Below are positions 20,818 through 40,809 of a stretch of DNA of 64,000 bases, one piece after another (position 1 is the first letter of the stretch; every line of letters begins with the position of its first letter). Under the pieces are notes generated by a model, which did not search any database, was not told where the DNA came from, and was given only the letters and a program-made list of their open reading frames with translations. The stretch is from Thermodesulfobacteriota bacterium. GTDB taxonomy: Bacteria; Desulfobacterota; BSN033; UBA1163. The DNA lies in NCBI GenBank assembly GCA_026415035.1, contig JAOAHX010000001.1:124001-188000 (forward strand), given 5' to 3'. A program made the translations under genes and the position numbers.

Positions 20818-21546
20818 TCACGGCCGGAACTCATCATCGGTCAGACCGGCATCGAGAACGAGCTGCTCATAGCCATAGTCACCCATGAGCCTCTCTTCCC
20901 AGTCGAAGGCCACTACTCGGATGGGAACCTTCGTCTGGGTATCGATGGCCATGAGGGTCCGATAGCAATAATAGCCATAGCGGGGATCTCTTGGAAAGCG
21001 TAGGTCAATAACCAAAGCCCTTCGGCCATAAACCTGCTCTTCTTTCAGGAGTTCATAAGCCACCTGCCCGGAGGCCCAGCCCCTTCTGAGGTTCTCTCCG
21101 AAAAGCCTTACGAGAAAACCCAGACCGGCATCGGTGATGGGGTGTCGGCTTCCCTGCATGGCAAGACGGCCGAGGGGGTTGAGGTGGAGGGTCACCGTGC
21201 CGAAGGTCCCTGGCTCGCGAACGAGGATTCGGTTCTTGTTCCAGCCCTCGACATAATAGATCTCCCTTCCTTTCCCGGGTCCCTCGATCCACTGCATGTA
21301 AACCTTGAAAGGCTTCTTGAATTTGAACCGGACGGTCTCCTTTGACTTTAACCAATCCTTGATCCGCTCCTGCTTATGGAAGATCGCGGTATAGGACTCG
21401 GTCCGCTCAAGGATCTCCTCGGCTTGACCTAACCACTCCTTTAAACAGACCGCGTGCCCAGTGGAAAAGGTCGAGAACAGGTCGAATAAGACCGATAAAA
21501 CAAGCAGGGGCATTCGTCCTCCCTGCCAGAGGGATCGAGGGCTCAT
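20818..21546 (-). CDS. Secreted DUF1571-like (LolA-like fold) protein
   Basis: 242 residues with a signal peptide (basic N-region, then MPLLVLSVLFDLFSTF, cleavage near GHA-VC). The mature part reads as a curved beta-sheet: KDWLKSKETVRFKFKKPFKVYMQW, YVEGWNKNRILV, and RALVIDLRFP, with the family-typical IDTQTKVPIRVVAFDWE. A lipid- or envelope-related role is inferred from the LolA-like pattern. A second start at 21513 has a better ribosome site (GGGAGG) but would lose the basic N-region, so 21546 is kept. A well-formed Pho box precedes it. Confidence 0.68.
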   Translation of the reverse strand: MSPRSLWQGGRMPLLVLSVLFDLFSTFSTGHAVCLKEWLGQAEEILERTESYTAIFHKQERIKDWLKSKETVRFKFKKPFKVYMQWIEGPGKGREIYYVEGWNKNRILVREPGTFGTVTLHLNPLGRLAMQGSRHPITDAGLGFLVRLFGENLRRGWASGQVAYELLKEEQVYGRRALVIDLRFPRDPRYGYYCYRTLMAIDTQTKVPIRVVAFDWEERLMGDYGYEQLVLDAGLTDDEFRP

Positions 21547-21606
21547 AGGAGATTTTGGCTCCTTGGATCTGGGGTGGCCCGGTATCGGCAAAATAGTATG
21601 AGAGGG

Positions 21607-21983: not shown

Positions 21984-22010
21984 CCGAGGGAAGCCTCGGC
22001 CCGTTTGGGC
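21984..22010. terminator. Candidate bidirectional terminator
   Basis: Two adjacent hairpins, CCGAGG-gaag-CCTCGG and GCCC-gttt-GGGC, lie between the converging zinc-ribbon and DUF3562-like genes. On the plus strand an A-rich rather than T-rich run follows, so termination is plausible but not proven. Confidence 0.4.
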
Positions 22011-22240
22011 TAACTCAAAAAAGCCCCCTTATCGAGAAGCTCTTTGACCCGCTTCGAAACGAGGATGGAGAGATAGAGCTTGATCCTTGCCTTCTTTTTA
22101 TACTCCCTCAGGACGGCCTCATAGATCTGAAAAACCTCCTCCGGAACTCCTTTGAGGTCCCTGGCCAAGCTCTGCATGGCGTCCAGGTGCTGCTTCTTTT
22201 CGAGGTCATCCTCATAAAGCGTTTCGGCAGTCATGGTCAT
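22010..22240 (-). CDS. DUF3562-like small helical protein
   Basis: 76 residues, entirely helical by composition. The pattern LDAMQSLARDLKGVPEEVFQIYE, ARIKLYLSILVSKRVKELL resembles the DUF3562 family: an N-terminal helix pair and a C-terminal segment with the invariant-looking ARI and VSKRV. It starts 12 bp after the MetK-like gene, so it is probably co-transcribed with the ATPase island. Function unknown. Confidence 0.62.
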   Translation of the reverse strand: MTMTAETLYEDDLEKKQHLDAMQSLARDLKGVPEEVFQIYEAVLREYKKKARIKLYLSILVSKRVKELLDKGAFLS

Positions 22241-22252
22241 CTCCTTGTCAAA

Positions 22253-23455
22253 TCAACCCTCGGCGAGCATGCCGGCTTTATCGGTCAGCTCCCAGGGAAG
22301 GCCGATGTCCATTCTTCCCACATGGCCATAAGCCGCCAGCTTCCGATAGAAGCCCCCTTTGAGGAGGCCGGGCAAATACCGGAGCTTGAATTGGCGCAAG
22401 ATCCCCGCCAACCGGAAATCGAAATGCCGGTTCAACCGGCGGACGATCTCTTCGTTGGAGACCTTTCCCGTTCCAAACGTCTCGACATGGATGCTGACGG
22501 GTCTCGAAAGCCCGATCGAATAGCTCAATTGAAGTTCACATTCTTCGGCCAGGCCAGCGGCCACCACGTTCTTGGCCGCGTAACGGGCCGCATAAGCTCC
22601 AACCCGGTCGATTCGAGTCGGATCTTTACCGCTCAGGGCGGCCCCGCTGTGTCTCGAGAATTCCCCATAGGTATCGATCGCATTCTTCCTGCCCGTCAAC
22701 CCAGAATGGACCGCCGGGCCTCCGACATAAAAGGGCCCGTCCGGATTGACGAAGATCCTCGTCTTCTCGTCGGGTTTGATCTCCTCGTCCTGGAAGACGG
22801 GAAAGATCACCTCCTCCTGGATGTCTTGGGCCAAAGAGGATAGGTCAGGCCCTCCTTGATCCGGAGAGGACTTCTGGGCAGCGATCACCGTGATGCTGTG
22901 AAGCCTGAACGGGCGTCCCTGTCGATATTCTATCCCGACCTGGGTCTTTCCATCCGGCGCCAGATAGGGGAGGATCTTCTGATGCCTCACGGCGGCCAAT
23001 CTCCGGGCCAGCTTATGGGCCAGCCAGATCGGCAGGGGCATCAGGGAGGGGGTTTGATTACAGGCAAACCCGAAGACGGTGACCTGGTTCTTCACCGTGA
23101 TGCGATCCATCTCCTCATCCGAAAGGCCCTGTTCGTCGAAGGCATAGGCCCCATCGTGGGGAAGTTCCTTCAGGCTGGTGAGGATGCTACAGGTCTGGGC
23201 ATTGAAGGTTTGATGATCGTAGCCAATCTGGTGGACGACCTGCCTGGCGATATTGGGGAAATCGAGCCTCGCCGCGCTGTCGAATCGGGCCGCAATAAAG
23301 ATGATGGCGGTCGATACCGCACACTCTACGATCACCCTTGAATAAGGATCCTGCTGGAGGAAACGATCCAGGATGGCATCGCTGATCTGATCGCATAATT
23401 TGTCGGGATGTCCTTCCGTGACCGACTCCGAGGTAAACATGAAATCCTTCTTCAT
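22253..23455 (-). CDS. Divergent S-adenosylmethionine synthetase paralogue (MetK-like)
   Basis: 400 residues, co-linear with MetK from TSESVTEGHPDK to AYGHVGR and the C-terminal TDKA. Three active-site blocks differ from active enzymes: the GAGDQGLMFGYA loop reads VKNQVTVFGFA, the GPxGDxGLTGRK block reads GPAVHSGLTGRK, and the early GGEITT block reads AARFDS. SGKDP is kept. Known ATP-binding and methionine-binding acidic residues are therefore lost, so the protein may not make SAM or may use another substrate. It lies 72 bp after the P-type ATPase gene on the same strand. A canonical metK probably exists elsewhere. Confidence 0.8.
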   Translation of the reverse strand: MKKDFMFTSESVTEGHPDKLCDQISDAILDRFLQQDPYSRVIVECAVSTAIIFIAARFDSAARLDFPNIARQVVHQIGYDHQTFNAQTCSILTSLKELPHDGAYAFDEQGLSDEEMDRITVKNQVTVFGFACNQTPSLMPLPIWLAHKLARRLAAVRHQKILPYLAPDGKTQVGIEYRQGRPFRLHSITVIAAQKSSPDQGGPDLSSLAQDIQEEVIFPVFQDEEIKPDEKTRIFVNPDGPFYVGGPAVHSGLTGRKNAIDTYGEFSRHSGAALSGKDPTRIDRVGAYAARYAAKNVVAAGLAEECELQLSYSIGLSRPVSIHVETFGTGKVSNEEIVRRLNRHFDFRLAGILRQFKLRYLPGLLKGGFYRKLAAYGHVGRMDIGLPWELTDKAGMLAEG

Positions 23456-23527: not shown

Positions 23528-26500
23528 CTAACCCGGTTTGAGCCTTTCTTGGATCACCAGGGGCCAAAGGGCGCTGAACCCGATCATCCAGGCGTCGATG
23601 AAACCAATGGGGGTGACGCCCAACAGCCTCCTCAACCCCGGTAAGAAGGGAATGGCGACCTGGAGGGCCAGGCTGCCTCCCACCGCCACGTTGAGAAATC
23701 GATTCGGCGAAAGTCCTCGGTCCGCCGAACCCAGGCCCAGCAAAGGCTTCTGATCCGACCGACAACTGAGGGCGTGAAGGATCTGGCCGATGCACAGGCT
23801 CATGAAGGCCAGGGTGCTGGCTCGGGGGCCGACCCCGTAGCGCGCCCATCCATATCCATATGCTCCCAGGGCGCCCGCAGACAAAAGGGCCGCAGAGACC
23901 CCGATCCGTTTGAAATCGCCCCTCCGGAGGATCGGCTCCCTCGGATCACGGGGAGGCTGAATAAAGACGTCCGGTTCAGGGGGATCGAGGGCCAACCCCA
24001 GGCCGGGGAAGATGTCCGAGATCAGGTTGATCCAGAGGAGCTGGATCACGTTTAAGGGTGGCCCCGCCCCTCCAAGGGTCGCTGCGCTCATCACCATGAT
24101 CTCGCTGAGATTGGTCGCCAGGAGATAACGGACCGTTTTCTGGATATTGTTGTAAATCGTCCTTCCTTGTCCGATTGCCACCACCATGGTCTGGAGATTG
24201 TCATCCTCCAGCACGACATCCGCCACTTCCCGGGCCACATCGGTTCCGGTCTTGCCCATGGCCACCCCGATGTCGGCGGCCTTCAAGGCGGGACCATCGT
24301 TGATCCCGTCCCCTGTCATGGCAACCACCCGTCCGGCGCTCTGGAGGGCGTGGACGATCTGGAGCTTATGGGCGGGCGTGACCCTCGAAAAGACATGAAC
24401 CTTTTCACACAAGGCCTTCAGGACGTCGGGGTCCATTTGGTTTAGGTGCGTCGAGTCAAGGATCTCCAACGGCCCGTCCCGGCCCAAATTCAGTTCCTTG
24501 CCGATGGCATAGGCGGTGGGGGTCTGATCGCCCGTGATCATGATCGTATCGATGCCCGTGCGATGGAAGGCCGCGATCAGCTCCTTCACGCCGGGCCGCA
24601 CCGGGTCTCCCATGCCGATCAGCCCGACCCAGACCAACCCATCGGTGAGCGAGTCCGCCTCCTCTGGGTTCATCAGCGAGGAGGGGTTTTCGTTTGCCTT
24701 GCCAAGGCCAAAAGCGAAACCCAGAACCCTCAAGGCCTCGCCTGCCATCCGTTGATTCTCCCACTCGATGGCCAGACGGTCTTCTTCAGACAGGGGGACC
24801 TCCTCCCCGTTGATGAGACAACGGCTACAGAGGGACAAGACCTCAAGGGGGTTGCCTTTCAAGGCGAGAAGGGCCAGATTGGGGTCTGGGGTCCGGTGAA
24901 GGGTCATCATGAAATTCCGATTTTCCGAGCGGTGTTGAATGCTCACCAGGGGATATCGAGCCCTCAACTCCTGGATATTGACTCCGACGGCGAGGGCCAA
25001 AGAGAGAAGGGCGTTTTCGGTAGCGGAGCCGGAAACCAGAACCTCCCCGTTCTTTTCGAACACCTCGCTTTCATTGCACAAGACAGAGAGGTGGACCAAT
25101 CTCAAGAGTTCATCGGATTGGTAGGGATGAATCGTCTTCCCGTTTTCCATCAGGCGATCCTGAGAAACTTCGTAGGTCTTGCCGTTCACGTGAACGGCTT
25201 TGATGGACATCCGATTGAGCGTGAGCGTCCCGGTCTTGTCGAGACAGATCGTTTGGACCGATCCCAGGGTCTCCACGGCCTCAAGATGCCGGATCAGGGC
25301 GCGATGCCTCTGCATGTTGCGGACTCCCAGCGCCAGCGTGGTGGTGGCCACAGCCGGAAGCCCTTCGGGAACGGCCGCAACCGCCAGCGAGATGGAGAGT
25401 TTCAGCATCGGCAACAACCCGTATCCCCGGAGAAGGCCGATGAGAAAGATGGCGATGCAGATCGCCGTGCTGAGATAGACAAGCTGCGACCCGACCCTTT
25501 GAAGTTGTCGTTCCATAGGGGTTTGGGGAGGCTTCGAGGCTCCGATCAGCATCTGAATCTGGCCGATTTCCGTATATCTTCCCGTGGCCACAACCACAGC
25601 CAGGCCTTGTCCCCCGGTCACCAGAGTCCCCCGGTAGACCATGTTGTGTCGGTCTGCAAGCGGGAGGCCGGGATCGCCCAAGGGCTCGGTCTCTTTCCCC
25701 ACGGGCAAGCTCTCGCCGGTGAGGGCCGATTCATCTACGCTGAGATGGGAGGTTTCGATCAATCGGGCGTCTGCGGCCACGTAGGTTCCGGGTCGCAGTA
25801 CGAGGAGATCGCCCGGGACGATCTCTCCGACGCCGACCTCTTGAAGCAGCCCGTCCCGTTTCACCAGGGCGGAAGGCCGGACGAGGCTCTTGAGGGAATG
25901 GATGATCCTTTCCGTCTGACTCTCGGTCCAGCATCCTATGGTGGCATTGATGGCCACGACGCTCAGGATCACCAGGGCTTCCACCAAGCCGCCGGTGGCC
26001 AGCGAAATCACCGTGGCCACTCCAAGCAAGGCCACCGGCAAGGATTTGAACTGTTCGATGAAGATCCTCCACTTCGATCGAGGGACGGACTCTGGGAGGA
26101 GATTTGGGCCAAATTTTTTTAACCTCTCCTGAACCCTCTCGCAGGATAAACCGCTGGTCCGATCCGTGCCAAAGTGCTCGATGACCGACTGGGCAGAAAG
26201 GCAATGCCAGGGTCTGCTCTCCTGCTCGGTGGCCCGTCGAATCGATTTTCGCAAAGCTCTCGGAGTGGAAAGGTTTGGAGGGGAGAGGAGGGATTCAGGG
26301 GATCGAACCTCCCGCTCTCCCTCCTGGCAAGGGGAGGAGGAAGGTTTGTTTGGGCTTTGGCGATAAAAGTCGGAGACGATCCTCTCGACCTGGGTCAGGA
26401 GGGTTGGGGTGGAGGTCCCAGGGTCGAAAAGGATAAGGACCTTTCCGGTCAGAAGGTTGATGGAGAAAAGGCGGACTTCCCGTAGGGCGGCTAACCGGAG

Positions 26501-26599
26501 TTCAAGGAATCTTTTGAGAGGCTCAGAGCGGTAAAGGCCGGTGATCTTAATCCTTACCCTGCCCTCTACCGCCGCGTGAACGATTTGAGTCAACCCCAT
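23528..26599 (-). CDS. P2-type cation-transporting ATPase with N-terminal HMA-like domain
   Basis: 1023 residues. Residues 1-80 are an HMA-like ferredoxin fold without the metal-binding CxxC (VEGRVRIKI, LLTGKVLILFD). Then come a Cation_ATPase_N region (WHCLSAQSV), TGES at 294 (actuator), PEGLP at 411 (helix M4), the phosphorylated Asp in DKTGT at 454, KGNP at 581 (nucleotide domain), and TGDGIND at 762. N and E in TNLSE (M5) and N, S, D in INLISD (M6) match the Ca2+ ligands of SERCA pumps. Ca2+ (or Mn2+) transport is inferred. The start is 1 bp after the repeat-protein stop, implying coupling. Confidence 0.88.
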   Translation of the reverse strand: MGLTQIVHAAVEGRVRIKITGLYRSEPLKRFLELRLAALREVRLFSINLLTGKVLILFDPGTSTPTLLTQVERIVSDFYRQSPNKPSSSPCQEGEREVRSPESLLSPPNLSTPRALRKSIRRATEQESRPWHCLSAQSVIEHFGTDRTSGLSCERVQERLKKFGPNLLPESVPRSKWRIFIEQFKSLPVALLGVATVISLATGGLVEALVILSVVAINATIGCWTESQTERIIHSLKSLVRPSALVKRDGLLQEVGVGEIVPGDLLVLRPGTYVAADARLIETSHLSVDESALTGESLPVGKETEPLGDPGLPLADRHNMVYRGTLVTGGQGLAVVVATGRYTEIGQIQMLIGASKPPQTPMERQLQRVGSQLVYLSTAICIAIFLIGLLRGYGLLPMLKLSISLAVAAVPEGLPAVATTTLALGVRNMQRHRALIRHLEAVETLGSVQTICLDKTGTLTLNRMSIKAVHVNGKTYEVSQDRLMENGKTIHPYQSDELLRLVHLSVLCNESEVFEKNGEVLVSGSATENALLSLALAVGVNIQELRARYPLVSIQHRSENRNFMMTLHRTPDPNLALLALKGNPLEVLSLCSRCLINGEEVPLSEEDRLAIEWENQRMAGEALRVLGFAFGLGKANENPSSLMNPEEADSLTDGLVWVGLIGMGDPVRPGVKELIAAFHRTGIDTIMITGDQTPTAYAIGKELNLGRDGPLEILDSTHLNQMDPDVLKALCEKVHVFSRVTPAHKLQIVHALQSAGRVVAMTGDGINDGPALKAADIGVAMGKTGTDVAREVADVVLEDDNLQTMVVAIGQGRTIYNNIQKTVRYLLATNLSEIMVMSAATLGGAGPPLNVIQLLWINLISDIFPGLGLALDPPEPDVFIQPPRDPREPILRRGDFKRIGVSAALLSAGALGAYGYGWARYGVGPRASTLAFMSLCIGQILHALSCRSDQKPLLGLGSADRGLSPNRFLNVAVGGSLALQVAIPFLPGLRRLLGVTPIGFIDAWMIGFSALWPLVIQERLKPG

Positions 26600-26600
26600 A

Positions 26601-27296
26601 TCACGGTTCTGTCCTGGTTCGACCTTTCCGGATAGGTCTCTCTTCTAAACCAGAACCCGTGCTTGGGGGGGTGGTTGAGGGGGTCGATGCCCCGGTCTCC
26701 CTCGGCTTGGGAAGGGCGGCCTGAAGCACATCCTTCACACCCTCCACCACACCGAGCATGACCTCCTTGACAGCCCGGAGGGCGGTGTTGCTGATATGGC
26801 CCGCGGCTTCCACGGCACCCTCGACCGCGACCTTGGCCACCTCCTCTACGTTCCCACCGATCTCCTTGGTCGCCTCGATCAGGCCATCGACAGTCCGCCG
26901 GGCCACGAGGGAGACATCCGCGCCGATCTCCGCCGCTCCCTTGACCGCTCCTCGAATCGTCTGGCCCGCCACGGTGACGACATCCCCGCCGACATCGCTC
27001 ACCCCCATGACCACGCCCTTGGCCACATTCTTGGCGCTCAACATCAAACCCGTCCCAACCTCTTCCGTCGCCTGAATCGCGCCTTTCACCACATCTTTGG
27101 TGAGGGCCAGGCTCTCTTCAGCGGCGGTCCCGGTGGCTTTTAGGGTGTTGGAAACTGTCGACCGCACCAGTGTGACGATCTCCGCCTCAATCTCGCTGAT
27201 CCCTTTGAGGCTTCCGATGATCCCCTCCTTCACCGCCGTGCCGGCTTTGCCTATATCTACACTTGATTCCCCGACCTTCTTTTCTGTCGTATCCAC
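26601..27296 (-). CDS. Amphipathic 22-residue-repeat (LEA/apolipoprotein-like) protein
   Basis: 231 residues. Eight repeats with an exact 22-residue period begin at residues 25, 47, 69, 91, 113, 135, 157 and 179; the consensus is roughly V-x-G-(A/V)-(I/V)-x-(A/G)-(T/A/V)-x-E-(I/V)-G-x-(D/N)-V. Helices of this period (2 x 11) are known to bind lipid surfaces in apolipoproteins, synucleins and LEA proteins. No signal peptide or membrane helix is seen. The tail is Pro/Thr-rich and basic. The GTG start has AGGAGG eight bases upstream. It immediately precedes the ATPase gene. A phasin-like or membrane-coating role is inference. Confidence 0.75.
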   Translation of the reverse strand: MDTTEKKVGESSVDIGKAGTAVKEGIIGSLKGISEIEAEIVTLVRSTVSNTLKATGTAAEESLALTKDVVKGAIQATEEVGTGLMLSAKNVAKGVVMGVSDVGGDVVTVAGQTIRGAVKGAAEIGADVSLVARRTVDGLIEATKEIGGNVEEVAKVAVEGAVEAAGHISNTALRAVKEVMLGVVEGVKDVLQAALPKPRETGASTPSTTPPSTGSGLEERPIRKGRTRTEP

Positions 27297-27423
27297 GATC
27301 TCACCCTCCTTTGATCAAAGTTGAGCCAAAAGGATTCCAAAGAGGATTGAAACCCGTGCTTTTAGGGCAAGGGCTTGCAACCCTGGGAAGGGATGGAGGA
27401 TTCCTCAAGGCCGTAGGAATGCC

Positions 27424-27921
27424 TCATTCTCCTTCGGAAGCTCCTCCCTCTGGTTTCGACTTGAGAAAGAGGTTAAGGCCATACCAGAAAGCGGTATACC
27501 AAGGAATGGCCGAGACATTACCCTTTAGGATCTGGTAGGTTCCTGCCGCAATGAGTGCGATGGAGGCCAGGGCCCCCAGATTGACGGCCCCGCCCGTGAG
27601 CTCCGAAGTCCGACCTTCGAGGGTGCTGAAGGCCCGAATGGCGGCTTGGTGAAAAGAAGCTGCCTCTTTCTTGAGTTGAAGCGCAAACAGGCCCTTATCT
27701 CTGGCAAATTGGGCAAGAGAATCGATATCCAAGTGGTGAAGCAGCAGAATGCTTCCGGTGAGAGGATTGGTCTCGATGCGTTCCACGCCTGAGAGTTGAG
27801 AGAAGGGCGGGGTGATCCTCTCCTGAAAAAAGGGGGCATCCCTTTTTCTGGAAGGAATATGCAATCTCAATCTCCCTGGAGACCGATGCCGTACGAAGGC
27901 GATGGGTAATCCCTCTTCCAT
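27424..27921 (-). CDS. HMA-like domain protein with C-terminal membrane segment
   Basis: 165 residues. Residues 8-70 form an HMA-like domain starting with FVRHRSPGRLRLHIPS and ending with TNPLTGSILLLHH, without any Cys. The C-terminal half has two hydrophobic segments (VNLGALASIALIAAGTYQIL and AIPWYTAFWYGLNLFL) and a charged tail. The same HxxPGRLR motif occurs in the 28771-29142 protein and, altered, in the ATPase N-terminus. GGGAGAGGAG precedes the ATG. It lies 21 bp after the DUF5132-like gene. Confidence 0.72.
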   Translation of the reverse strand: MEEGLPIAFVRHRSPGRLRLHIPSRKRDAPFFQERITPPFSQLSGVERIETNPLTGSILLLHHLDIDSLAQFARDKGLFALQLKKEAASFHQAAIRAFSTLEGRTSELTGGAVNLGALASIALIAAGTYQILKGNVSAIPWYTAFWYGLNLFLKSKPEGGASEGE

Positions 27922-27942
27922 GCTCCTCTCCCTGAGATAAAA

Positions 27943-28242
27943 TTAGCTTTTCAATCCCCCCTCTTCCTTCACCTCCGGGACTGCCATCATCTCGCTCTTG
28001 TGGGCATGGGCCAACTCCGATTTGACCTCTGCGACCAAGTCTTCGACCACCTCTTGGGTCTCTGCCACGATCTCCCTCCCTTTCTCGTAGAGAAGGAATC
28101 CTCCTTTGATAGCCCCCTTGGCCAGAGGTTTGACGATCGTCGCCAGTACCGGAACCACAATCGGAGCGAGAAGTGCCGCACCTATCCCGATGGCTAACCC
28201 CCCCAATATATTTCCTCTCAATCCATTATTAAAAAGGCTCAT
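27943..28242 (-). CDS. DUF5132-like small membrane protein
   Basis: 99 residues: a glycine/alanine-rich hydrophobic segment (ILGGLAIGIGAALLAPIVVPVLATI) followed by VKPLAKGAIKGGFLLYEKGREIVAETQEVVEDLVAEVKSELA-type charged helix (quoted by its character: K/E-rich, about 45 residues). This one-helix-plus-coil layout recalls DUF5132 and the mycobacterial PacL/DUF1490 proteins that scaffold P-type ATPases in membrane patches; the comparison is by architecture only. AGGGGG stands nine bases before the ATG. First gene of the island's minus-strand operon. Confidence 0.65.
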   Translation of the reverse strand: MSLFNNGLRGNILGGLAIGIGAALLAPIVVPVLATIVKPLAKGAIKGGFLLYEKGREIVAETQEVVEDLVAEVKSELAHAHKSEMMAVPEVKEEGGLKS

Positions 28243-28423
28243 GAAAACACCCCCTAACGAGATGGTTTTACCGGTAATTTTACACCCATGGATAGTGAAT
28301 TGCCATGGCCTCTTTCATTAGTTTCCTCCTTTCGGTCAAGCAATTAATTCATTGATATCCTTGAAAACTTTTTACTCGTGGCCCTCCTCTCATTCAGCTT
28401 GCTGAAACGGGTGACTTAAAAAA

Positions 28424-28463
28424 TTTAACCAAAATTTAAGGCCTCCTTCACCAAATTGTAACA
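28424..28463 (+). promoter_or_regulatory. Putative four-repeat Pho box before the zinc-ribbon/HMA pair
   Basis: TTTAACC (28424), TTTAAGG (28435), CTTCACC (28446) and TGTAACA (28457) are in perfect 11-bp register on the plus strand. GATATT at about 28471-28476 could be the -10. The transcript would then begin near 28483, almost at the GTG start codon. Confidence 0.55.
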
Positions 28464-28484
28464 AAGCCGAGATATTTACCATTC

Positions 28485-28829
28485 GTGGAATCCTTCAAAA
28501 TTATAGGGCTTCGATGCCCAAGATGTGATGCCAACGTCATCTATAAATTTGGGAGGTTGAAAACAGGGGAACAAAGGTATCGTTGTGTACTCTGCGGGGT
28601 GCAATTCACTCAAAAGACCACGGTTAAAAAAAGCATCCCCCGCCCCACCTGCTCCATCTGTGGGAGGAAGATGCACCTCTACAAGGAAGACGACCGCTCG
28701 TGGCGATTTCGATGCTCTTTTTATCCTGTATGTAAAACCTATCGGAAGATGATGAAAGGGGAGGCGGAATATGGGGTATTACCTCCATCAGGTACCGGGC
28801 AGATTAAGGATCAGAACCCCACTCTTTAA
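28485..28829 (+). CDS. Double zinc-ribbon protein
   Basis: 114 residues with two four-Cys units. The first (CPRCDANVIYKFG...YRCVLCG) resembles the ribbon of transposase-like and InsA-type proteins; the second (CSICGRKMHLYKE...RCSFYPVC) resembles topoisomerase-type zinc fingers. No catalytic domain follows, so it is not a transposase. The start is GTG with no clear ribosome site, fitting a short or absent leader after the Pho box. Its 3' end overlaps the next gene by 59 bp in another frame. Function unknown; DNA or RNA binding is possible. Confidence 0.65.
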   Translation: MESFKIIGLRCPRCDANVIYKFGRLKTGEQRYRCVLCGVQFTQKTTVKKSIPRPTCSICGRKMHLYKEDDRSWRFRCSFYPVCKTYRKMMKGEAEYGVLPPSGTGQIKDQNPTL

Positions 28830-29142
28830 GGGGAACGAGAAGAAGGCATCCGAGGCCAAGGCGATGATCGAGTCCATCCACGGAGTCCTTTCCACGGCCA
28901 TCAATCCGGTGACGGGAAGCCTCGTGATACACTATGACCCGAATGTGGTTGAACCTGAAACCCTCACCTCTGTTTTAACCCGGTTTGGCTACTTTGATAA
29001 AGCCAAAGCAATCACGAACGAACAATACATCCAAAACGCGGCCACGCAGGCGGGGCAATGGGCATGGAAGGCCATCTTCGGGGCTTTCGCAGATAGCGCC
29101 TTGCAGGGATCACCTTTAGCTGTCCTCACCCTCTTCTTGTAA
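28771..29142 (+). CDS. Small HMA-like domain protein
   Basis: 123 residues. MGYYLHQVPGRLRIRTPLF opens an HMA-like fold (IHGVLSTAINPVTGSLVIHYDP) with no Cys, so it cannot be a classical copper-type metallochaperone. The C-terminus is short and mildly hydrophobic (GSPLAVLTLFL). GGGGAGG lies seven bases before the ATG, inside the zinc-ribbon gene, so translation is probably coupled. The protein is similar to the HMA parts of the 27424-27921 protein and of the ATPase, on the opposite strand of the same island. Confidence 0.72.
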   Translation: MGYYLHQVPGRLRIRTPLFKGNEKKASEAKAMIESIHGVLSTAINPVTGSLVIHYDPNVVEPETLTSVLTRFGYFDKAKAITNEQYIQNAATQAGQWAWKAIFGAFADSALQGSPLAVLTLFL

Positions 29143-29144
29143 AA

Positions 29145-30392
29145 TTATAGGAGGAAGGTACCAGATCTCCTCTTAATCAGAAAAGAGTAGAATTTAGCAA
29201 CCGGGGTCGCCTTTCGTTCGAGGGTTTCGAAATCGACCCGGTAAAGCCCGAACCGGGCATCCATACCCTTTAGCCATTCATAATGGTCCATGAGGGACCA
29301 ATAAAAATAACCCCGGATATCCATCCCCTTTTTCAGGCAACCCTCTAAGATATCGAGATGGCTTTTGATGTACCAATCCTTCTTCCTTCGGTCAGCGGTC
29401 GCGATGCCATTTTCGGTGATCATCACCGGAAGCCCAAAGGTCGAAGCCTCCCTCAGGACTTGTTCGAGGCCTCGCGGATAGATCTCCCAGCCCATATCGG
29501 TTAACCCATTTCCCTCTCTATCCTCGTATCGGAGGGCCACCCCCATGCGACAAAAGGGGTTGAATTGGAGGTGGATGCGCGTATAGTAATTCACCCCGAT
29601 GAAATCCAATTTCCCGCGAAGGGGAAGATCAACCTCAATCTTTTTGAAAATCGGGAAACGAAGCCTTAAACGGCCAATCCGTATGGCCTCCAATAAAGAG
29701 AGGTTGTAATAGCGGTGGGCCACCCTGGCCAAGAATCGATCGAGAGGACTCCATGAGCGGTACGGAGCGAAGACCGCCATGTTTTGAGCCAATCCGACCT
29801 CGGCCTGGGCGTTCCTCCCGTGGAGAATGTCGTAGGCCTCTGCATGGGCAAGAAGGAGGTTTACGTTGGCATGAACATAGGAAGTCTGGTCCTTGACCCC
29901 GGGAGGCATACACCCATCCAGGTAACCACCCAGTAAGAGGACATTGGGTTCGTTGAAGGTGATCCAGTAACGAACCTCCCCGAAAGCCTCGACGATGTGC
30001 TTCACATATTCTGCAAATTTCAAGATGGATTCCTCTCGATGCCAAGGAAATTTTTCAAGAAACCACCTCGGGTGGGTGAAATGATGAAGGGTGATAACCG
30101 GCTCAATCTGCTCTTCTCGAAGGATTCGAACGATCTCCAGGTACCTGCCGAGCGCCATATCATCCCAGCGATCCTGGGCAGGCTGGATTCGACTCCACTC
30201 GATCGAAAACCGATAGGCGTTGACCCCGATCTCTTTGAGGAGTTTTAAATCCTCTTTGTATAAATGATAATGGTGGGTCACGTCCGGATGTGCCCGAAGC
30301 CTCTCGTCCCAGGTCGCCCAATCAGCAAAAGGGGAGCCCTCGATCTGGAAGGCGGAGGTGGCTACTCCCCAGAGGAATTTCCGTTCTCCCAT
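29145..30392 (-). CDS. GH1 family beta-glycosidase
   Basis: 415 residues of the GH1 (beta-alpha)8 barrel, a little shorter than the usual 440-470. The acid/base Glu is in YWITFNEPNV and the nucleophile Glu in VMITENGIA; ATSAFQIEGS, LHHFTHP and WSLMDHYEW are substrate-site segments. No signal peptide, so cytoplasmic. Beta-glucosides are likely substrates, but the exact sugar is unknown; glucolipid turnover is conceivable given the neighbours. GGAGG stands eight bases before the ATG. It converges on the HMA gene (2-bp gap) and diverges from pstS. Confidence 0.88.
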   Translation of the reverse strand: MGERKFLWGVATSAFQIEGSPFADWATWDERLRAHPDVTHHYHLYKEDLKLLKEIGVNAYRFSIEWSRIQPAQDRWDDMALGRYLEIVRILREEQIEPVITLHHFTHPRWFLEKFPWHREESILKFAEYVKHIVEAFGEVRYWITFNEPNVLLLGGYLDGCMPPGVKDQTSYVHANVNLLLAHAEAYDILHGRNAQAEVGLAQNMAVFAPYRSWSPLDRFLARVAHRYYNLSLLEAIRIGRLRLRFPIFKKIEVDLPLRGKLDFIGVNYYTRIHLQFNPFCRMGVALRYEDREGNGLTDMGWEIYPRGLEQVLREASTFGLPVMITENGIATADRRKKDWYIKSHLDILEGCLKKGMDIRGYFYWSLMDHYEWLKGMDARFGLYRVDFETLERKATPVAKFYSFLIKRRSGTFLL

Positions 30393-30608: not shown

Positions 30609-30637
30609 TGTAACAGAAATGTAACAAATTTGTAACA
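30609..30637 (+). promoter_or_regulatory. Putative proximal Pho box of the pst operon
   Basis: Three identical TGTAACA heptamers stand at 30609, 30620 and 30631, the cleanest series in the window. CTAATT/TAATTA at about 30646-30652 is a possible -10, giving a very short leader beginning near the AGGAGG of pstS. Confidence 0.7.
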
Positions 30638-30667: not shown

Positions 30668-31702
30668 ATGAAAGGGTCTTTAACAATGAAGATTTTGAAG
30701 GTTTTCGGAGTGGGGATCGCCTTAGGGCTGGTCATCGGATGGATGGCCATTGGAGGTCATCCCGGTCAGGCCTCTGCTCAGGAGAAGATCATCAAGATCG
30801 ATGGGTCGAGCACGGTCTATCCCATCACCGAGGCCGTGGCCGAAGAGTTCCAAAAAATGAAAAAAGGAACCATCAAGGTGACCGTCGGGATTTCTGGCAC
30901 GGGCGGAGGATTTAAGAAGTTCACCCGAGGGGAAACCGACATCTCCAACGCCTCCAGGCCCATCGTCAAGAAGGAGATGGAGGCTGCCAAGGAGGCGGGC
31001 ATTGAATTCATCGAATTGCCGATCGCCTATGATGGTCTGGCCGTGATGGTCAACCCGAAAAACACCTGGGTCACCTCGATGACGGTGGCCGAACTGAAAA
31101 AGATCTGGGAGCCCGCGGCAGAGGGAAAGATCGTGAAATGGAATCAAGTCAACCCCGCCTGGCCAGACGTTCCTTTGAAACTCTACGGACCTGGGGTCGA
31201 TTCGGGAACGTTCGACTATTTCACGGAGGCCATCGTCGGAAAATCGAGGTCAAGCCGGGGTGACTTTACCGCCAGTGAGGACGATAACGTCCTCGTCCAG
31301 GGCATCGCCTCCGATCGGGGGGCCCTCGGGTTTTTCGGCTACGCCTACTACGCAGAGAACCCGGACAAGTTGAAACTCGTGGCGATCGACGGCGGAAGGG
31401 GTCCTGTCCTTCCCTCCGAAAAAACGGTCATGGACGGAACCTACACCCCCCTCTCGAGGCCGATCTTCATCTATGTGAACAAGAAGTCCGCCGAACGCCC
31501 TGAGGTAAAGGAGTTTATCGAGTTTTACCTCAGGAACGCCTCCAAGCTGGTCAAACAGGTCAAATATATTCCTCTCCCCGAGAGGGCCTATAAACTGGCC
31601 GAAGAGCGCTTCGCCAGGAAGGTGACCGGGACCGTTTTCGGTGGAGAACCCAAGATCGGGATGAAGATCGAAGAACTGCTGAAGCTCGAGGAGAAAAAAT
31701 AG
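30668..31702 (+). CDS. pstS: Phosphate ABC transporter substrate-binding protein PstS
   Basis: 344 residues: a signal peptide ([20 protein letters not shown], cleavage near ASAQ) and a PstS fold. [40 protein letters not shown] and [10 protein letters not shown] carry the Ser/Thr/Asp residues that bind phosphate. It captures Pi in the periplasm for PstCAB. AGGAGG precedes the ATG at 30668; an ATG six codons later is also possible. Two tandem Pho boxes lie upstream. Confidence 0.96.
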
Positions 31703-31706
31703 CTTC

Positions 31707-32600
31707 GTGGCGACCAGAAACCCGATCCGAAAGATCAAGGAGAGGGCCATTGAGAGTAGTCTGCTCCTCTGTGCCCTCTCCTCCATTTTTGTCACCCTGG
31801 GCATCGTCTTCATCCTCATCTACGAAGCCGCGGGTTTTTTCAGGGACGTATCCCTCCGTGAATTTCTCACCGGCAAACAGTGGACCCCGCTCTTCGCCCA
31901 GCCCAAATTCGGCATCCTCCCCCTTGTGACGGGGACCCTGCTGGTCACCTCCATCGCGGTCTCCGTGGCCTTGCCCATCGGCCTGATCGTGGCCGTCTAC
32001 CTAAGCGAATACGCTCCATTCAGGGTCCGGGAGATCGCCAAGCCCATCCTCGAAATCCTTGCGGCCGTCCCAACGGTCGTCTACGGGTATTTTGCCCTGC
32101 TCTTCCTCACGCCCATTCTCCAAGAGTTCATCCCCAACCTCTCTGGGTTCAATGCCCTCAGCCCCGGCATCATCATGGGGATCATGATCATCCCTTACGT
32201 AAGCTCCGTAAGCGAAGACGCCATGAAGGCCGTCCCCATGCATATCCGGGAAGGTTCCTATGCGATGGGCGCAACCAAATTTCAGACCGCCTTCCGTGTC
32301 GTCATCCCTTCCGCCTTTTCGGGGATCGCGGCCGCGTTCATCATCGGCATCTCGAGGGCGATCGGGGAGACCATGGTCGTGGCCATCGCCGCAGGCATGA
32401 TGCCCAATTTGACGTTCAACCCCCTCGAACCCATCCAGACCCTCACGGCTTACATCGTCGGCGTCAGCCTCGGAGACGTTCCCCACGGGACGCTCGAATA
32501 CAAGACGATCTTCGCGGCGGGGATCACGCTCTTTTTCATGACCCTTTTCCTCAACATTTTGGGCTTCTGGTTCCGAAGAAGGATCCGGGAAGCCTACTGA
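31707..32600 (+). CDS. pstC: Phosphate ABC transporter permease PstC
   Basis: 297 residues with six membrane helices and the permease loop EGSYAMGATKFQTAFRVVIP. It forms the phosphate channel with PstA. SRAIGETMVVAIAAG is conserved in PstC. The start is GTG, 4 bp after pstS, with the pstS tail GAGGAG upstream acting as ribosome site. Confidence 0.94.
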   Translation: MATRNPIRKIKERAIESSLLLCALSSIFVTLGIVFILIYEAAGFFRDVSLREFLTGKQWTPLFAQPKFGILPLVTGTLLVTSIAVSVALPIGLIVAVYLSEYAPFRVREIAKPILEILAAVPTVVYGYFALLFLTPILQEFIPNLSGFNALSPGIIMGIMIIPYVSSVSEDAMKAVPMHIREGSYAMGATKFQTAFRVVIPSAFSGIAAAFIIGISRAIGETMVVAIAAGMMPNLTFNPLEPIQTLTAYIVGVSLGDVPHGTLEYKTIFAAGITLFFMTLFLNILGFWFRRRIREAY

Positions 32601-32612
32601 GGTCAGATCAGG

Positions 32613-33542
32613 ATGACCCCTCAAACCCAGGACGTCGAACAGATCCGGAGAACAATCGCCTATAATAAATTCCGGGACTATGTCTTCGCGATCGTCGGGC
32701 TCCTCTGCACCCTGATCGGTTTTGTCCTCCTCTTCACGTTGATCATCGATCTCTTCCTCGATGGCCTCCCGAGACTGAGCTGGTCTTTTTTCACCTCCTA
32801 CCCCTCGCGATTCCCCGAGAAGGCGGGGATCCTCTCGGCCTGGGTCGGCACCACCCTGGTGATGGTCGTGACGGCGGCCACGGCCGTCCCTCTGGGGATC
32901 GCCACGGGCATCTATCTCGAAGAATATGGCCGAAAGAACTGGTTCACCCACCTGATCGAGATCAACATGAATAACCTTGCGGGCGTCCCTTCGATCATCT
33001 ACGGCCTCTTGGCGTTGGGACTCTTCGTCTATTTTTTAAAATTTGGGGAGAGCATTCTGACCGGCGGATTGACCCTGGGCCTTCTGATTCTGCCGTTGGT
33101 GGTGATCGCCACCCGGGAGTCGATCCGGGCGATCCCCAACTCCATCCGGGAGGCCTCCTATGCTTTAGGCGCCACGAAATGGCAGACCGTCAAGGATCAC
33201 ATCCTCCCTTACTCCATGGGAGGGATCCTCACGGGGATCATCATCGGCCTCTCCCGGGCCATCGGGGAGACCGCTCCCATCATCACCGTGGGCGCCCTCA
33301 CCTTCATCGCCTTCTTACCTTCCTCTCCAGTCACGTCAGACTTCCCGTTTCTCTCCTTCAAATGGCTATTCGACCCCTTCACGGTCATGCCCATCCAGAT
33401 GTTCAACTGGGTGTCCCGGCCGCAGAAGGAGTTTCACCTCAATGCAGCGGCCGCCGGGATCATCCTCCTTCTCATGACGCTGGCCATGAATGGATTGGCC
33501 ATTTATTTGAGGCACCGCTTCCGCAAGCGAATCAAATGGTGA
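32613..33542 (+). CDS. pstA: Phosphate ABC transporter permease PstA
   Basis: 309 residues with six membrane helices. [21 protein letters not shown] is the EAA loop, and [19 protein letters not shown] is a PstA signature. [18 protein letters not shown] is also typical. It lies 12 bp after pstC and ends 20 bp before the chosen pstB start, all in one operon. Confidence 0.94.
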
Positions 33543-33562
33543 AAAACAGGGGGGAAGCCACC

Positions 33563-34333
33563 ATGACATCCGAACCGCTGAAGGCCGAGGTAAAAAACTT
33601 GAATTTTTTCTATAATCACCTCCAGGCCCTCAAAAACATCCACCTCTCCATCGCCGAAAAGAAGATCACCGCCCTGATCGGCCCCTCGGGTTGCGGCAAG
33701 ACGACCTACCTCCGTTGCTTCAACCGGATGCACGATCTCTACCCGAACAATCGCTACGAGGGAGAGATCCTCCTTTACCCGGACCGGCTGAATATCCTCA
33801 GCCCGAAGATCGACCCGATCGAGGTGCGCATGCGGATCAGCATGGTCTTTCAGAAGCCGAATCCCTTTCCCAAGACGATCTTCGAAAATGTCGCCTATGG
33901 GTTGAGGGTCCGAGGGGAGAACCGGAAATCCTATCTCGAAGAGAAGGTCGTCAAGGCCCTGAAGCAGGCCGCCCTTTGGGAGGAGGTCAAGGACCGGGTT
34001 CACGACCTGGCCTTCAACCTCTCCGGGGGGCAGCAGCAGAGGCTTTGCATCGCCCGGGCTTTGGCGACGGATCCGGAGATCCTCCTCTTTGACGAACCGA
34101 CCTCCGCCCTCGACCCGACCGCCACCTCCAAGATCGAGGAGCTGATCATCCAGCTCAAGAAAGACGTCACCATCATCATCGTCACCCATAACATGCAACA
34201 AGCGGCACGGGTCTCCGATTACACCGCCTTCATGTATTTGGGGGAGATCATCGAATACGATAAGACCGAGAAGATCTTCACCCACCCTTCCCAAAAATTG
34301 ACCGAGGACTATATCACCGGTCGGTTCGGTTAG
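33563..34333 (+). CDS. pstB: Phosphate ABC transporter ATP-binding protein PstB
   Basis: 256 residues. Walker A is GPSGCGKTT, followed by the PstB-specific [27 protein letters not shown] is the Q-loop region; signature [16 protein letters not shown]; Walker [14 protein letters not shown]. The ATG at 33563 follows GGGGGAAG and is preferred. An in-frame ATG at 33536 overlaps pstA and lacks a site. Confidence 0.96.
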
Positions 34334-34356
34334 ACGAGGCCTAAGAGGGAGAGCGT

Positions 34357-35037
34357 ATGATCACCGAAACCCAATTCCAGAAAGAACTCCAGGAACTGAA
34401 GCAGCAGCTGCTCAAGATGGCCACCCTGGTCGAGGTCACCATCCACGATGCGGTCCAATCCCTCGTCAAGCGGGACTCGGACCTCGCCCACCAGATCTTC
34501 GAACGGGAAAAACAGATCAACGAGATGGAACTGGTGATCGACGATATGTGCTTGAAACTCCTCGCCCTGAGGCAGCCCATGGCGGTCGACCTCCGCTTCA
34601 TCACCTCGGCGATGAAGATCACCACCGACCTCGAACGGATGGGCGATCAGGCGGTCAACATTGCGGAGCGCGCCCTCTCCCTCAACCAGGAGCCCCAGCT
34701 CAAACCCTACATCGACCTTCCCCGGATGGCGGAGATCGCCCAGTCGATGGTGAAGGACGTCCTGGATGCCTTTGTCAACCGTGACGTGAAGCTGGCCCGC
34801 TCGGTCTGTGAAAGGGACGATCTGGTGGACGGGCTGAACGACCAGGTCGTGCGAGAGCTCCTCACCTACATGATGTCCGACCCCAAAACCATCACCCGGG
34901 CGGTCCACCTCATGATCGTGGCCCGCTGTCTGGAGCGGATCGCGGACCACGCCACCAACATCGCCGAGGACGTCATCTTCATGGTCGACGCCAAGGTGAT
35001 CAAACACCACGCCGATGCCAAAGAAAGAGGGGCATAG
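34357..35037 (+). CDS. phoU: Phosphate transport regulator PhoU
   Basis: 226 residues, two PhoU three-helix repeats, each with the acidic metal-binding pattern (ERMGDQAVNIAERA near residue 90 and ERIADHATNIAEDV near 195). PhoU links Pst transport activity to the PhoR sensor kinase and shuts the Pho response when Pi is plentiful. phoB and phoR are not in this window. AGAGGGAG precedes the ATG. Its last 23 bp overlap the release-factor-like gene. Confidence 0.95.
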   Translation: MITETQFQKELQELKQQLLKMATLVEVTIHDAVQSLVKRDSDLAHQIFEREKQINEMELVIDDMCLKLLALRQPMAVDLRFITSAMKITTDLERMGDQAVNIAERALSLNQEPQLKPYIDLPRMAEIAQSMVKDVLDAFVNRDVKLARSVCERDDLVDGLNDQVVRELLTYMMSDPKTITRAVHLMIVARCLERIADHATNIAEDVIFMVDAKVIKHHADAKERGA

Positions 35038-38158: not shown

Positions 38159-40228
38159 TCAGAAGAGGGAGACGATCCAGTGGTGGATGGCGAGGATCAT
38201 CGGGCCGAAGACCAGCGACACCACGGTCATGAGCTTCAGGAGGATGTTCAGCGAAGGTCCGGAGGTGTCCTTGAAGGGATCGCCCACCGTATCCCCCACC
38301 ACCGCGGCCTTATGGGTGTCCGAACCTTTGCCGCCGAGGTTTCCTTCTTCGATCCACTTCTTCGCATTATCCCAGGCCCCGCCTGCGTTGGCCATCTGAA
38401 GGGCGAGGGGGACTCCGGTCGCCAGTGACCCTAACAACATCCCGGCCAAGGCCTCCGGGCCCAGAAGGCTTCCCAGCACGATCGGAATGACGACGGCCGA
38501 TATCCCAGGGGCCACCATCTCTTTGAGGGCCCCTGCGGTCGTAATATCCACGCATCGGGCGTATTCGGCCCGGGCCGTGCCCTCCATCAACCCCTTGATC
38601 TCCCTGAACTGTCTTCGGACCTCCTCCACCACCCGGAAGGCGGCCCTTCCCACGGCCATCATCGTCGCCCCCGCGAAGTAATACGGGATGATGGCCCCGA
38701 TGAAGACGCCTGCCACAATCTTATAGCCTCCTGTCGCGCTCATGATGTCGATGGCCGAAAGCCCCATCACCTGCGTGTAGGAGAGAAAGAGGGCCAAGGC
38801 GGTCAACGCAGCGGAACCGATGGCGAAGCCCTTCCCGATGGCCGCCGTCGTATTGCCCGCCGCATCGAGGGAATCGGTGATCTTCCGGATCTCCTTCCCC
38901 ATATGGGCCATCTCCGCGATGCCACCGGAGTTGTCGGCGATGGGTCCATAGGCGTCCACGGAAACGACCATGCCGGTGATGGCCAACATCCCGATGGCGG
39001 CCAGGGCGATTCCGAAGAAGCCACCGAGCTTGAAGGAGATGATGATGGCCAACCCGATGATCACGAGAGGGACGACCGTGCTCCGGCAGCTCAGGGCAAA
39101 CCCGTGGATGATCGTCGTGGCCGATCCCGTGACGCTCGCCTTGGCCAGGCCCTGGACCGACCTCCCTGAGGTATAGTAATAGGCGGTGTAGCCGATCACC
39201 ATCCCGGAGACGATGCCTGAAAAGGTGGCCAGGAAGTAGGAGAGGTCCCCATCGAACATCACCCAGACCAGGACAAGGGCCCCGATCGAATAGAGGACCG
39301 AACTGGCCAGGGTCCCGTTGTTGAGGGCCTTTCTCGGGTCGGACTTCTCATCGGTTCGGACGAAGTAGACCCCGAGGATGGAGGCGATGACCCCGATGGC
39401 GTAGAGAAGGAAGGAGAGGATCACCCCCTTGATCTTGAGTTCGGGGGTTTCGAGGGTGGAGACAGCGATGATCACCCCGGAAAGAAGGGAGCCGATATAA
39501 GACTCATACAGATCTGCGCCCATCCCGGCCACATCGCCCACATTGTCGCCGACGTTGTCAGCGATCACAGCAGGGTTTCGGGGGTCATCCTCGGGGATCC
39601 CGGCTTCGACCTTTCCGACCAGGTCCGCACCGACATCGGCTGCCTTCGTATAGATGCCGCCCCCTACCCTTGCAAAGAGGGCCACGGAACTGGCACCCAT
39701 GCTGAAGCCGGCGATGATATTGGCCGCCTCGGTCATCCTCTCCACCAGCCCTCCCGAAGCCAGTTGGCCGAGAAGGAGGAAAAGGAGAGAGAAGACCAGG
39801 AGGCCCAACCCCACGACGGTGAGCCCCATCACGGCTCCGCCAGGAAAGGCGATCGAGAGGGCGTAATTATATCCTTTCGTGGCGCCCTGCGCGGTCCGGG
39901 TATTGGCCCGGGTGGCGATGCTCAACCCAACGTAGCCTGCGACCAGGGAGCAGGCCGCTCCGAGGAGATAGGAGATCGCCGTCAGGAGCGAGAAATGCCA
40001 TCCCTGACCTTTCAAACCGATGGCCAGGAGGACGGCGACGATCAGGGCGAAGAGGCTGATCGCCTTATACTCCCTTTTCAGGAAGGCCATGGCCCCCTCG
40101 TGGACCGCCTCGGAAATGGCCACCATCCTTTCGTTCCCAGGGTCCTGCCTCATGACCCTCCGGGCGGTCAAGAGAACAAAGAGCAAAGCGACAATCCCCG
40201 TGAGTGAAGCGACTCCAATCCAGCCCAT
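38159..40228 (-). CDS. hppA: Membrane-bound proton/sodium-translocating pyrophosphatase
   Basis: 689 residues with about 16 membrane helices. The catalytic block EDDPRNPAVIADNVGDNVGD and the second DTVGDPFKDTSGPSLN are intact. The GNTTAAIGKGFAIGSAAL segment, with Ala where K+-independent enzymes have Lys, marks the K+-dependent subfamily, which includes Na+-, H+- and dual pumps; which ion is not decided here. It conserves the energy of PPi. The ATG at 40228 has AGGAGGG six bases away; a TTG two codons earlier is less likely. Confidence 0.94.
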   Translation of the reverse strand: MGWIGVASLTGIVALLFVLLTARRVMRQDPGNERMVAISEAVHEGAMAFLKREYKAISLFALIVAVLLAIGLKGQGWHFSLLTAISYLLGAACSLVAGYVGLSIATRANTRTAQGATKGYNYALSIAFPGGAVMGLTVVGLGLLVFSLLFLLLGQLASGGLVERMTEAANIIAGFSMGASSVALFARVGGGIYTKAADVGADLVGKVEAGIPEDDPRNPAVIADNVGDNVGDVAGMGADLYESYIGSLLSGVIIAVSTLETPELKIKGVILSFLLYAIGVIASILGVYFVRTDEKSDPRKALNNGTLASSVLYSIGALVLVWVMFDGDLSYFLATFSGIVSGMVIGYTAYYYTSGRSVQGLAKASVTGSATTIIHGFALSCRSTVVPLVIIGLAIIISFKLGGFFGIALAAIGMLAITGMVVSVDAYGPIADNSGGIAEMAHMGKEIRKITDSLDAAGNTTAAIGKGFAIGSAALTALALFLSYTQVMGLSAIDIMSATGGYKIVAGVFIGAIIPYYFAGATMMAVGRAAFRVVEEVRRQFREIKGLMEGTARAEYARCVDITTAGALKEMVAPGISAVVIPIVLGSLLGPEALAGMLLGSLATGVPLALQMANAGGAWDNAKKWIEEGNLGGKGSDTHKAAVVGDTVGDPFKDTSGPSLNILLKLMTVVSLVFGPMILAIHHWIVSLF

Positions 40229-40230
40229 AA

Positions 40231-40809
40231 TCAACCCTCCTCTGTTCTGATTTTATGGTACCGGTTCATCGCCGTTTGAAGACCCTCGAGAACCATCACC
40301 TTTAAGGCCTCGGCAGCCAGATCGATGACCTTCTCTAAGGAGCCTCGCTCAGCCTCATCGAACTGGCCGAGGACGTAGTCGGCGGGATCCAGATGGGGGG
40401 GAGGCCTTCCAATGCCCACTTTCAATCTCAAGAAGCGTTCCGTCCCGATCGTTTCAACGATGGAACGAACGCCGAGATGGCCTCCATCGCCGCCCTGCCT
40501 CTTAAATCGGAGCCTCCCGAAAGGGAGGTCCAGATCGTCATGGACGACCGTCAAATCTTTGGGTTCCAAGTGAAAAAAGAGGATGGCCCGTTTGACCGCT
40601 TCCCCGCTGCGGTTCATAAAGGTCATAGGCTTGAGAAGGAGGATCTCCTGAGAGTCGATCTTCCCCTTTCCGATGAGGGCTTGGAATCGCTTTGTGGTGA
40701 TGGGAATATGGGCTAATGCGGCGAGTCGGTCGACGATGAAGAATCCGATGTTGTGTCGACTTCCTTCATATTGAACACCCGGGTTCCCCAATCCCACAAT
40801 CAGCTTCAC
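40231..40809 (-). CDS. pth: Peptidyl-tRNA hydrolase
   Basis: 192 residues. The family motifs GLGNPGVQYEGSRHNIGF (catalytic His), LLKPMTFMNRSG (Asn) and VVHDDLDLPFGRLRFK (Asp) are complete. It releases tRNA from drop-off peptidyl-tRNAs. It follows rplY by 6 bp, the usual deltaproteobacterial pth-ctc-prs arrangement. Confidence 0.95.
   Translation of the reverse strand: MKLIVGLGNPGVQYEGSRHNIGFFIVDRLAALAHIPITTKRFQALIGKGKIDSQEILLLKPMTFMNRSGEAVKRAILFFHLEPKDLTVVHDDLDLPFGRLRFKRQGGDGGHLGVRSIVETIGTERFLRLKVGIGRPPPHLDPADYVLGQFDEAERGSLEKVIDLAAEALKVMVLEGLQTAMNRYHKIRTEEG

Follow-up and report, generated by a model that had tools for sequence, protein, structure and literature searches.

Some bacterial operons combine a P-type ATPase with small membrane proteins. 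In ferrosomes (Fez) of Desulfovibrio magneticus and Clostridioides difficile, the small membrane proteins are thought to build a membrane-bound cation store; iron-phosphorus granules enclosed by membrane are a mark of these systems. In mycobacteria, P1B-type ATPases are found in platforms with PacL (DUF1490) proteins, and PacL and CtpC form membrane foci (PMC9374683). Perilipin-4, apolipoproteins and alpha-synuclein carry 11-mer (3-11) helices that fold on lipid, a signature of lipid coats (PMC5889406). Here we analyze a gene island that resembles each of these in part. It lies in a window, the whole 64,000-nt stretch studied, from a Thermodesulfobacteriota bacterium (GCA_026415035.1, contig JAOAHX010000001.1, positions 124,001-188,000 of the forward strand). 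The unit is ordered as a DUF5132 protein, a protein with an HMA_2 domain and membrane helices (HMA_2-membrane protein), a 22-mer repeat protein (REP), a P2A-type ATPase, and a paralog of the S-adenosylmethionine (SAM) synthetase MetK (MetK2), usually with a zinc-ribbon/HMA_2 gene pair nearby.

We conclude that this gene set is a real, conserved, previously undescribed bacterial system. New here are the MetK2 clade, the predicted 11/3 helix of REP, the H..GRxR loop replacing CxxC in HMA_2 domains, and the proximity of pst genes in about one third of the loci. In the papers searched there was no mention of DUF5132 and no report of a neofunctionalized MetK.

Conservation of the gene order

Scanning species genomes for REP yielded 33 loci, most of them in Nitrospirota and some in Thermodesulfobacteriota and Myxococcota, and a further 16 strong REP loci were taken from the phylum of the window. 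The order DUF5132-HMA_2-REP-ATPase-MetK was almost invariant in these 33 and 16 loci where the contig was long enough. It thus recurs in about 50 loci with annotations from several phyla (Nitrospirota, Thermodesulfobacteriota and Myxococcota). An earlier note on this window had made its proposal depend on conserved co-localization of these genes, which is what was found. The six neighboring genes listed in that note are all present where it placed them, by Pfam matches and coordinates (Table 1). It had missed two members of the conserved neighborhood, MetK2 and DUF3562, into which the minus-strand operon extends past 23528; MetK2 is as conserved as the ATPase. DUF5132 was found in nearly all related loci and DUF3562 near the cluster in about 11 of the first 33. 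The zinc-ribbon/HMA_2 pair is conserved as well and often lies downstream of MetK2 in other loci.

The genes also occurred together at the level of genomes. Among 297 genomes of the window's phylum, REP was detected in 17, the cluster-type MetK in 20 and the cluster-type ATPase in 20, and all 17 REP genomes carried both of the others (Fisher 6e-25); among 246 Nitrospirota genomes, 21 had REP, 22 had MetK2 and 18 had both (Fisher 1e-20), these p-values being indicative only because genomes within one sample share ancestry. With the thresholds used, no match to REP, MetK2 or the ATPase was detected in five sampled genus-mates of the window genome (G007, G111, G192, G215, G279) or in four other members of its family. 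The island is therefore patchily distributed and may have been acquired.

A MetK paralog with a replaced methionine pocket

Forty MetK2 rows from the clusters (a few being the same gene twice) were set against E. coli MetK and against 23 canonical copies found in the same genome set. Residues were mapped on the E. coli sequence and numbering, which agree with the canonical copies aligned here. All 40 rows formed one clade separate from MetK (support 100/100). MetK2 shares with methionine adenosyltransferases the fold (PDB matches, E 1e-103) and all the residues for ATP/triphosphate and Mg: H14, D16, K17, E42, K245, K265 and D271 were present in 40 of 40 and K165 and R244 in 39. Its methionine contacts E55, Q98, D238 and K269, in contrast, are replaced. 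Asp238 was changed to His, Cys239 to Ser and Lys269 to Arg in every row; Glu55 was never kept (Arg in 36), Gln98 was retained in only four, and the GAGDQG loop was lost.

In human MATalpha2, the equivalents of Glu55, Gln98 and Asp238 (Glu70, Gln113 and Asp258) hold methionine or SAM; in patient variants, Asp258Gly among them, SAM synthesis is low and phosphatase activity unaltered (PMC6850014). The Gln113Ala mutant of the human enzyme retains 75% activity (PMC6850014), so the loss of Gln98 by itself says little.

Of 20 MetK2 carriers, 19 have a separate canonical MetK. In the remaining carrier (G257, 95% complete) no second copy was found; close relatives with both exist. The canonical MetK of the window genome (L040, G000:C1:248253-249383) is 49% identical to MetK2 and has an intact methionine pocket. 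On account of the replaced pocket and the second MetK we rejected MetK2 as the ordinary housekeeping enzyme, and we infer that MetK2 is probably not a SAM synthetase. MetK2 might still make SAM for methylation of lipids or other targets under phosphate limitation, with the pump and coat serving membrane remodeling. The retained fold and the complete set of triphosphate and Mg residues would fit this, and phosphate starvation often alters membrane lipids. The contacts to the methionine amine, however, are replaced (D238 and E55 in 40/40), as is Q98 in 36/40, and 19 of the 20 carriers have a canonical enzyme, which makes this explanation improbable.

A CorA-type Mg/Co transporter gene lies immediately 3′ of MetK2 in six loci (L006, L015, L016, L017, L021 and L137).

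A repeat protein with features of lipid coats

The 22-mer periodicity claimed in the earlier note is far above chance (z 7.6 against shuffled sequences). The hydropathy moment of REP was maximal at 98.0-98.5 degrees per residue, with a value of 1.33 against 0.46 +/- 0.07 after shuffling, and this peak matches the angle of an 11/3 helix (98.2 degrees). REP has about 190 repeat residues and no Cys, and aromatic residues are absent from the core of the window copy and almost absent from its relatives. We therefore predict a coherent amphipathic 11/3 helix. The 11-residue register, the 98-degree helix and the paucity of bulky hydrophobic residues are shared with the helices of perilipin-4, alpha-synuclein and apolipoproteins, and by these repeat features the earlier suggestion of a coat on curved membrane is plausible. 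REP differs from those proteins in being bacterial and strongly conserved between species, and the likeness is without established sequence homology. Median identity to relatives was 70% for REP and 57% for the ATPase, as would be expected of a self-assembling or coat protein.

A homology search of the PDB with REP gave no match. Hits to the Senescence domain (E 0.005), Phasin_2 and phage tape-measure proteins were weak and typical of low-complexity helices, and Foldseek matches of the REP model, mostly designed helical bundles and BAR-type folds (E > 0.006), were uninformative. REP is tandemly duplicated in one locus (L071, 7148-8887), and another genome (G524) has three copies on separate contigs.

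The pump

The best-scoring models for the ATPase were PMR1 (603 bits) and SERCA (556 bits), against 250 bits for P1B heavy-metal pumps; its scores were under the curated SERCA and PMR1 equivalog cut-offs. The closest solved structures were human SPCA1 (499 bits) and the Listeria Ca-ATPase lmo0841 (481 bits), followed by SERCA. The P2A features present were the E1-E2 ATPase and the N- and C-terminal cation ATPase domains, DKTGT, PEGLP in M4 (transmembrane segment 4) and N..D in M6; conserved motifs were VAAVPEGLP (M4), TN[LM]SEI (M5) and QLLWINLxSD (M6). By model scores and nearest structures, then, the island ATPase is a P2A-type cation pump and not P1B, in agreement with the earlier note, which had excluded the P1B-6 type. 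It is like SPCA1, lmo0841 and SERCA in core sequence and in its site-II-type M4/M6 motifs, and differs from them by its N-terminal HMA_2 domain and by a Gln in M8 where SERCA has E908 (residues mapped by eye). Homology points to Ca2+ or Mn2+ as the likely pumped ion. The same genome also encodes two ordinary P2A pumps (L003, L005). Locus L085 has a second HMA_2-P2-type ATPase (L085:2958-5966, minus strand), which carries FPASLA in place of the M4 PEGLP motif and seems to have lost its M5/M6 ligands; it is possibly a non-transporting paralog.

Bacterial P2A pumps usually export Ca2+ over the cytoplasmic membrane. The island might accordingly be read as an efflux platform in the plasma membrane, resembling PacL-CtpC, in which the pump is clustered by DUF5132, HMA_2 proteins and REP, the cation is exported from the cell, and there is no compartment. 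The usual export role of P2A pumps and the precedent of PacL/CtpC foci (PMC9374683) favor such a platform, as do the clusters without REP. DUF5132 is also PacL-like by eye, with a membrane segment rich in Gly and Ala that leads into a Glu/Ala-rich helical tail; however, it matched neither DUF1490 nor DUF6110 and showed no C-terminal metal motif (by eye). An efflux platform, moreover, leaves MetK2 unexplained, and with it the higher conservation of REP than of the pump. We consider it unlikely taken by itself, though nearly as likely as the reading that we prefer below.

HMA_2 domains without CxxC

PF19991 is common to the ATPase N-terminus, the HMA_2-membrane protein and the small HMA_2 protein and occurs nowhere else in the window genome. 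The AlphaFold2 model of the HMA_2-membrane protein has a ferredoxin-like domain followed by three helices (predicted local distance difference test, pLDDT, 87), and its best Foldseek matches were MerP and other HMA domains (weak E, probability about 1.0). CxxC was found in none of the 57 HMA_2 sequences examined (24 HMA_2-membrane proteins, 16 ATPase N-termini and 17 small HMA_2 proteins). At the equivalent loop, H-x(3-5)-GRxR was present in 14 of 24, 15 of 16 and 15 of 17, respectively, and a relaxed pattern found the H..GRxR loop in nearly all of those checked. Because CxxC is missing, the usual hand-over of soft metals is unlikely, and the HMA-type adaptors proposed in the earlier note are better not taken for metal chaperones. 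The basic loop could serve in anion binding or in contact between proteins.

In three loci (L084:12887-15190, L085:12737-14932 and L069:12897-15341) the cluster adjoins a P1B-type ATPase that carries an HMA_2-like domain at its N-terminus, CPC in TM4 (transmembrane helix 4) and H...N in TM6, which suggests that FezB/P1B-6-like heavy-metal pumps share the HMA_2 modules. These neighbors would also fit a ferrosome variant storing iron phosphate. The pump of the island itself is P2A, the genome lacks a FezC-type DUF4405 gene, and the operon is tied to phosphate genes, with no link to an iron regulator seen; a ferrosome variant is thus very improbable.

Link to phosphate genes

The earlier note had reported a four-repeat Pho box on the plus side of the island. 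Its units, with an 11-bp period, start with TTTAACC, TTTAAGG, TTCACCA and TGTAACA, the last being the repeat that occurs three times before pstS (Table 1). The PhoB-box weight matrix was hand-set around the pstS repeats of the window; a match to it is a match to consensus and does not prove that PhoB binds. When the region was resampled 300 times with a first-order Markov model, the four-repeat score was never reached. The pst operon said to be next door is present as pstSCAB-phoU, but a GH1 gene intervenes before pstS. GH1 adjoins the cluster in just one other locus (L025) and was treated as a chance neighbor.

In the 33 loci, PhoB-box-like repeats were found upstream in about one third (p <= 0.01 per locus, simple Markov resampling, uncorrected for the number of loci), mostly pointing toward the small divergent HMA_2 gene. 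Among loci with enough flanking sequence, about one third had pst genes near the cluster (counted by eye). The arrangements were divergent (for example in L006, L012 and L017), tandem (L008, L010) and convergent; in L030 the pst genes lie beyond MetK2. The proposed phosphate link is thus seen in other loci too.

An ArsC gene (low-molecular-weight-phosphatase type) lies between the ATPase and MetK2 in L077, L078 and L080, and near the cluster in L006, L013, L017, L035 and L071. This might indicate a module for arsenate/phosphate stress, where arsenate enters via Pst, the ArsC-like protein acts, and the pump system relieves the stress. Most loci and the neighborhood in the window have no ArsC, however, and a P2A pump is no arsenite pump, so we regard such a module as a very improbable explanation.

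Proposed function

We tentatively favor, at somewhat less than even confidence, a conserved system in which a divalent-cation pump under phosphate regulation sits on a membrane domain or vesicle coated by REP. DUF5132 and the HMA_2-membrane protein would keep the pump within a membrane patch by way of HMA_2-HMA_2 contacts. REP would coat the patch or bend it into vesicles, as perilipin-4 does on droplets. The pump would remove Ca2+ or Mn2+ from the cytosol and deliver it, most probably, to a store rich in phosphate. MetK2 might use ATP or tripolyphosphate, either for hydrolysis or to adenosylate a non-methionine substrate, and couple the pump to phosphate status. PhoB would turn on at least the small HMA_2 adaptor.

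Several observations weigh against this reading. REP was missing from about six otherwise complete clusters (L084, L085, L122, L123, L124 and L125), and L086 had neither REP nor MetK2, so a coat is not strictly required. About half of the loci showed no PhoB-box-like signal and the majority had no pst neighbor. The AlphaFold2 model of REP is all-helical but of low confidence (mean pLDDT 61), and a hendecad coiled coil, which also fits the 11-mer periodicity, is a live alternative to the lipid-bound helix. P2A motifs are no safe guide to ion specificity. The whole reading is drawn from sequence-level evidence; within it, the compartment is a reasonable but unproven reading, and both compartment and ion are guesses from homology.

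As MetK2 was also missing from one cluster (L121), the constant part of the system comprises DUF5132, the ATPase and the HMA_2-membrane protein; MetK2 comes close to being constant, and REP is common. A fuller version of the favored reading is more doubtful still: an organelle or membrane domain that stores cations in a phosphate-dependent way, with a perilipin/synuclein-like coat and a former SAM synthetase that, as an ATP or tripolyphosphate enzyme, would feed or gate a calcium-type pump.

Features of the island and its surroundings

The small HMA_2 gene overlaps the zinc-ribbon gene on the plus strand. Directly beyond MetK2 and DUF3562 is a gene for a DUF1571 protein (20818-21591, minus strand; PF07608, E 5.5e-42).

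Table 1. Positions of the island genes, putative regulatory repeats and neighboring genes in the window.
Feature	Position	Strand	Evidence or remark
DUF3562 small protein	22010-22240	-	PF12085, E 2.5e-8
MetK2, MetK paralog	22253-23455	-	adjoins ATPase in almost all related loci
P2A-type ATPase, 1023 aa, N-terminal HMA_2	23528-26599	-	PF00122/00689/00690
REP, 231 aa, 22-mer (2 x 11) repeats	26601-27296	-	periodicity analysis
HMA_2-membrane protein, 165 aa, Cys-free	27424-27921	-	PF19991, E 9.5e-11
DUF5132 protein, 99 aa, first operon gene	27943-28242	-	PF17195, E 2.9e-12
PhoB-box-like repeats, four 11-bp units	28424-28463	+	hand-set weight matrix
Double zinc-ribbon protein	28485-28829	+	usually paired with small HMA_2 gene
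Small HMA_2 protein, 123 aa, H-GRxR loop, Cys-free	28771-29142	+	PF19991, E 3e-15
GH1 glycosidase	29145-30392	-	between small HMA_2 gene and pstS
PhoB box of pstS, three TGTAACA units, 11-bp period	30609-30637	+	
pstS, pstC, pstA, pstB, phoU	30668-35037	+	
H+-translocating pyrophosphatase (H+-PPase), full-length	38159-40234	-	about 3 kb beyond phoU

Comparison with known systems

The earlier note had drawn a parallel with acidocalcisomes. An H+-PPase gene lies near the cluster in the window and in none of the other fetched loci, so its proximity looks incidental and the parallel weak. As an argument for an acidocalcisome, this proximity was set aside. Of the earlier interpretation as a whole, then, the co-localization, phosphate link, pump class and coat-like repeat stood; the acidocalcisome parallel is weak, and the compartment or granule is still a proposal.

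By the features tested, the island is neither a ferrosome nor a PacL system. It resembles a ferrosome operon in joining a P-type ATPase to small membrane proteins, but the Fez pump (FezB) is P1B-6 and the island pump P2A. We know of no ferrosome counterpart of MetK2, REP or the pst link. FezC of D. magneticus is a DUF4405-like cytochrome (PMC10979944), and PF14358 (DUF4405/FezC) had no match in the whole window genome. Ferrosome membership was rejected because the island has no P1B-6 pump and the genome no DUF4405.

PacL platforms are similar, by eye, in their small membrane scaffold with a Glu/Ala-rich tail and an ATPase neighbor. Their pump class differs, DUF5132 is unrelated to PacL by Pfam at the level used, and no metal-binding C-terminus was seen (by eye). 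Only PF17195 was above the Pfam cut-off for the DUF5132 protein, with no DUF1490 or DUF6110 at E <= 1, and PacL membership was rejected on this ground.

If our reading is true, the island would link a bacterial coat of perilipin-like 11-mers to ion transport. It would also show a housekeeping enzyme, MetK, that has lost its amino-acid substrate and yet retained the phosphate chemistry. Among membrane assemblies around P-type ATPases it would then be a third kind, next to ferrosomes and PacL platforms.

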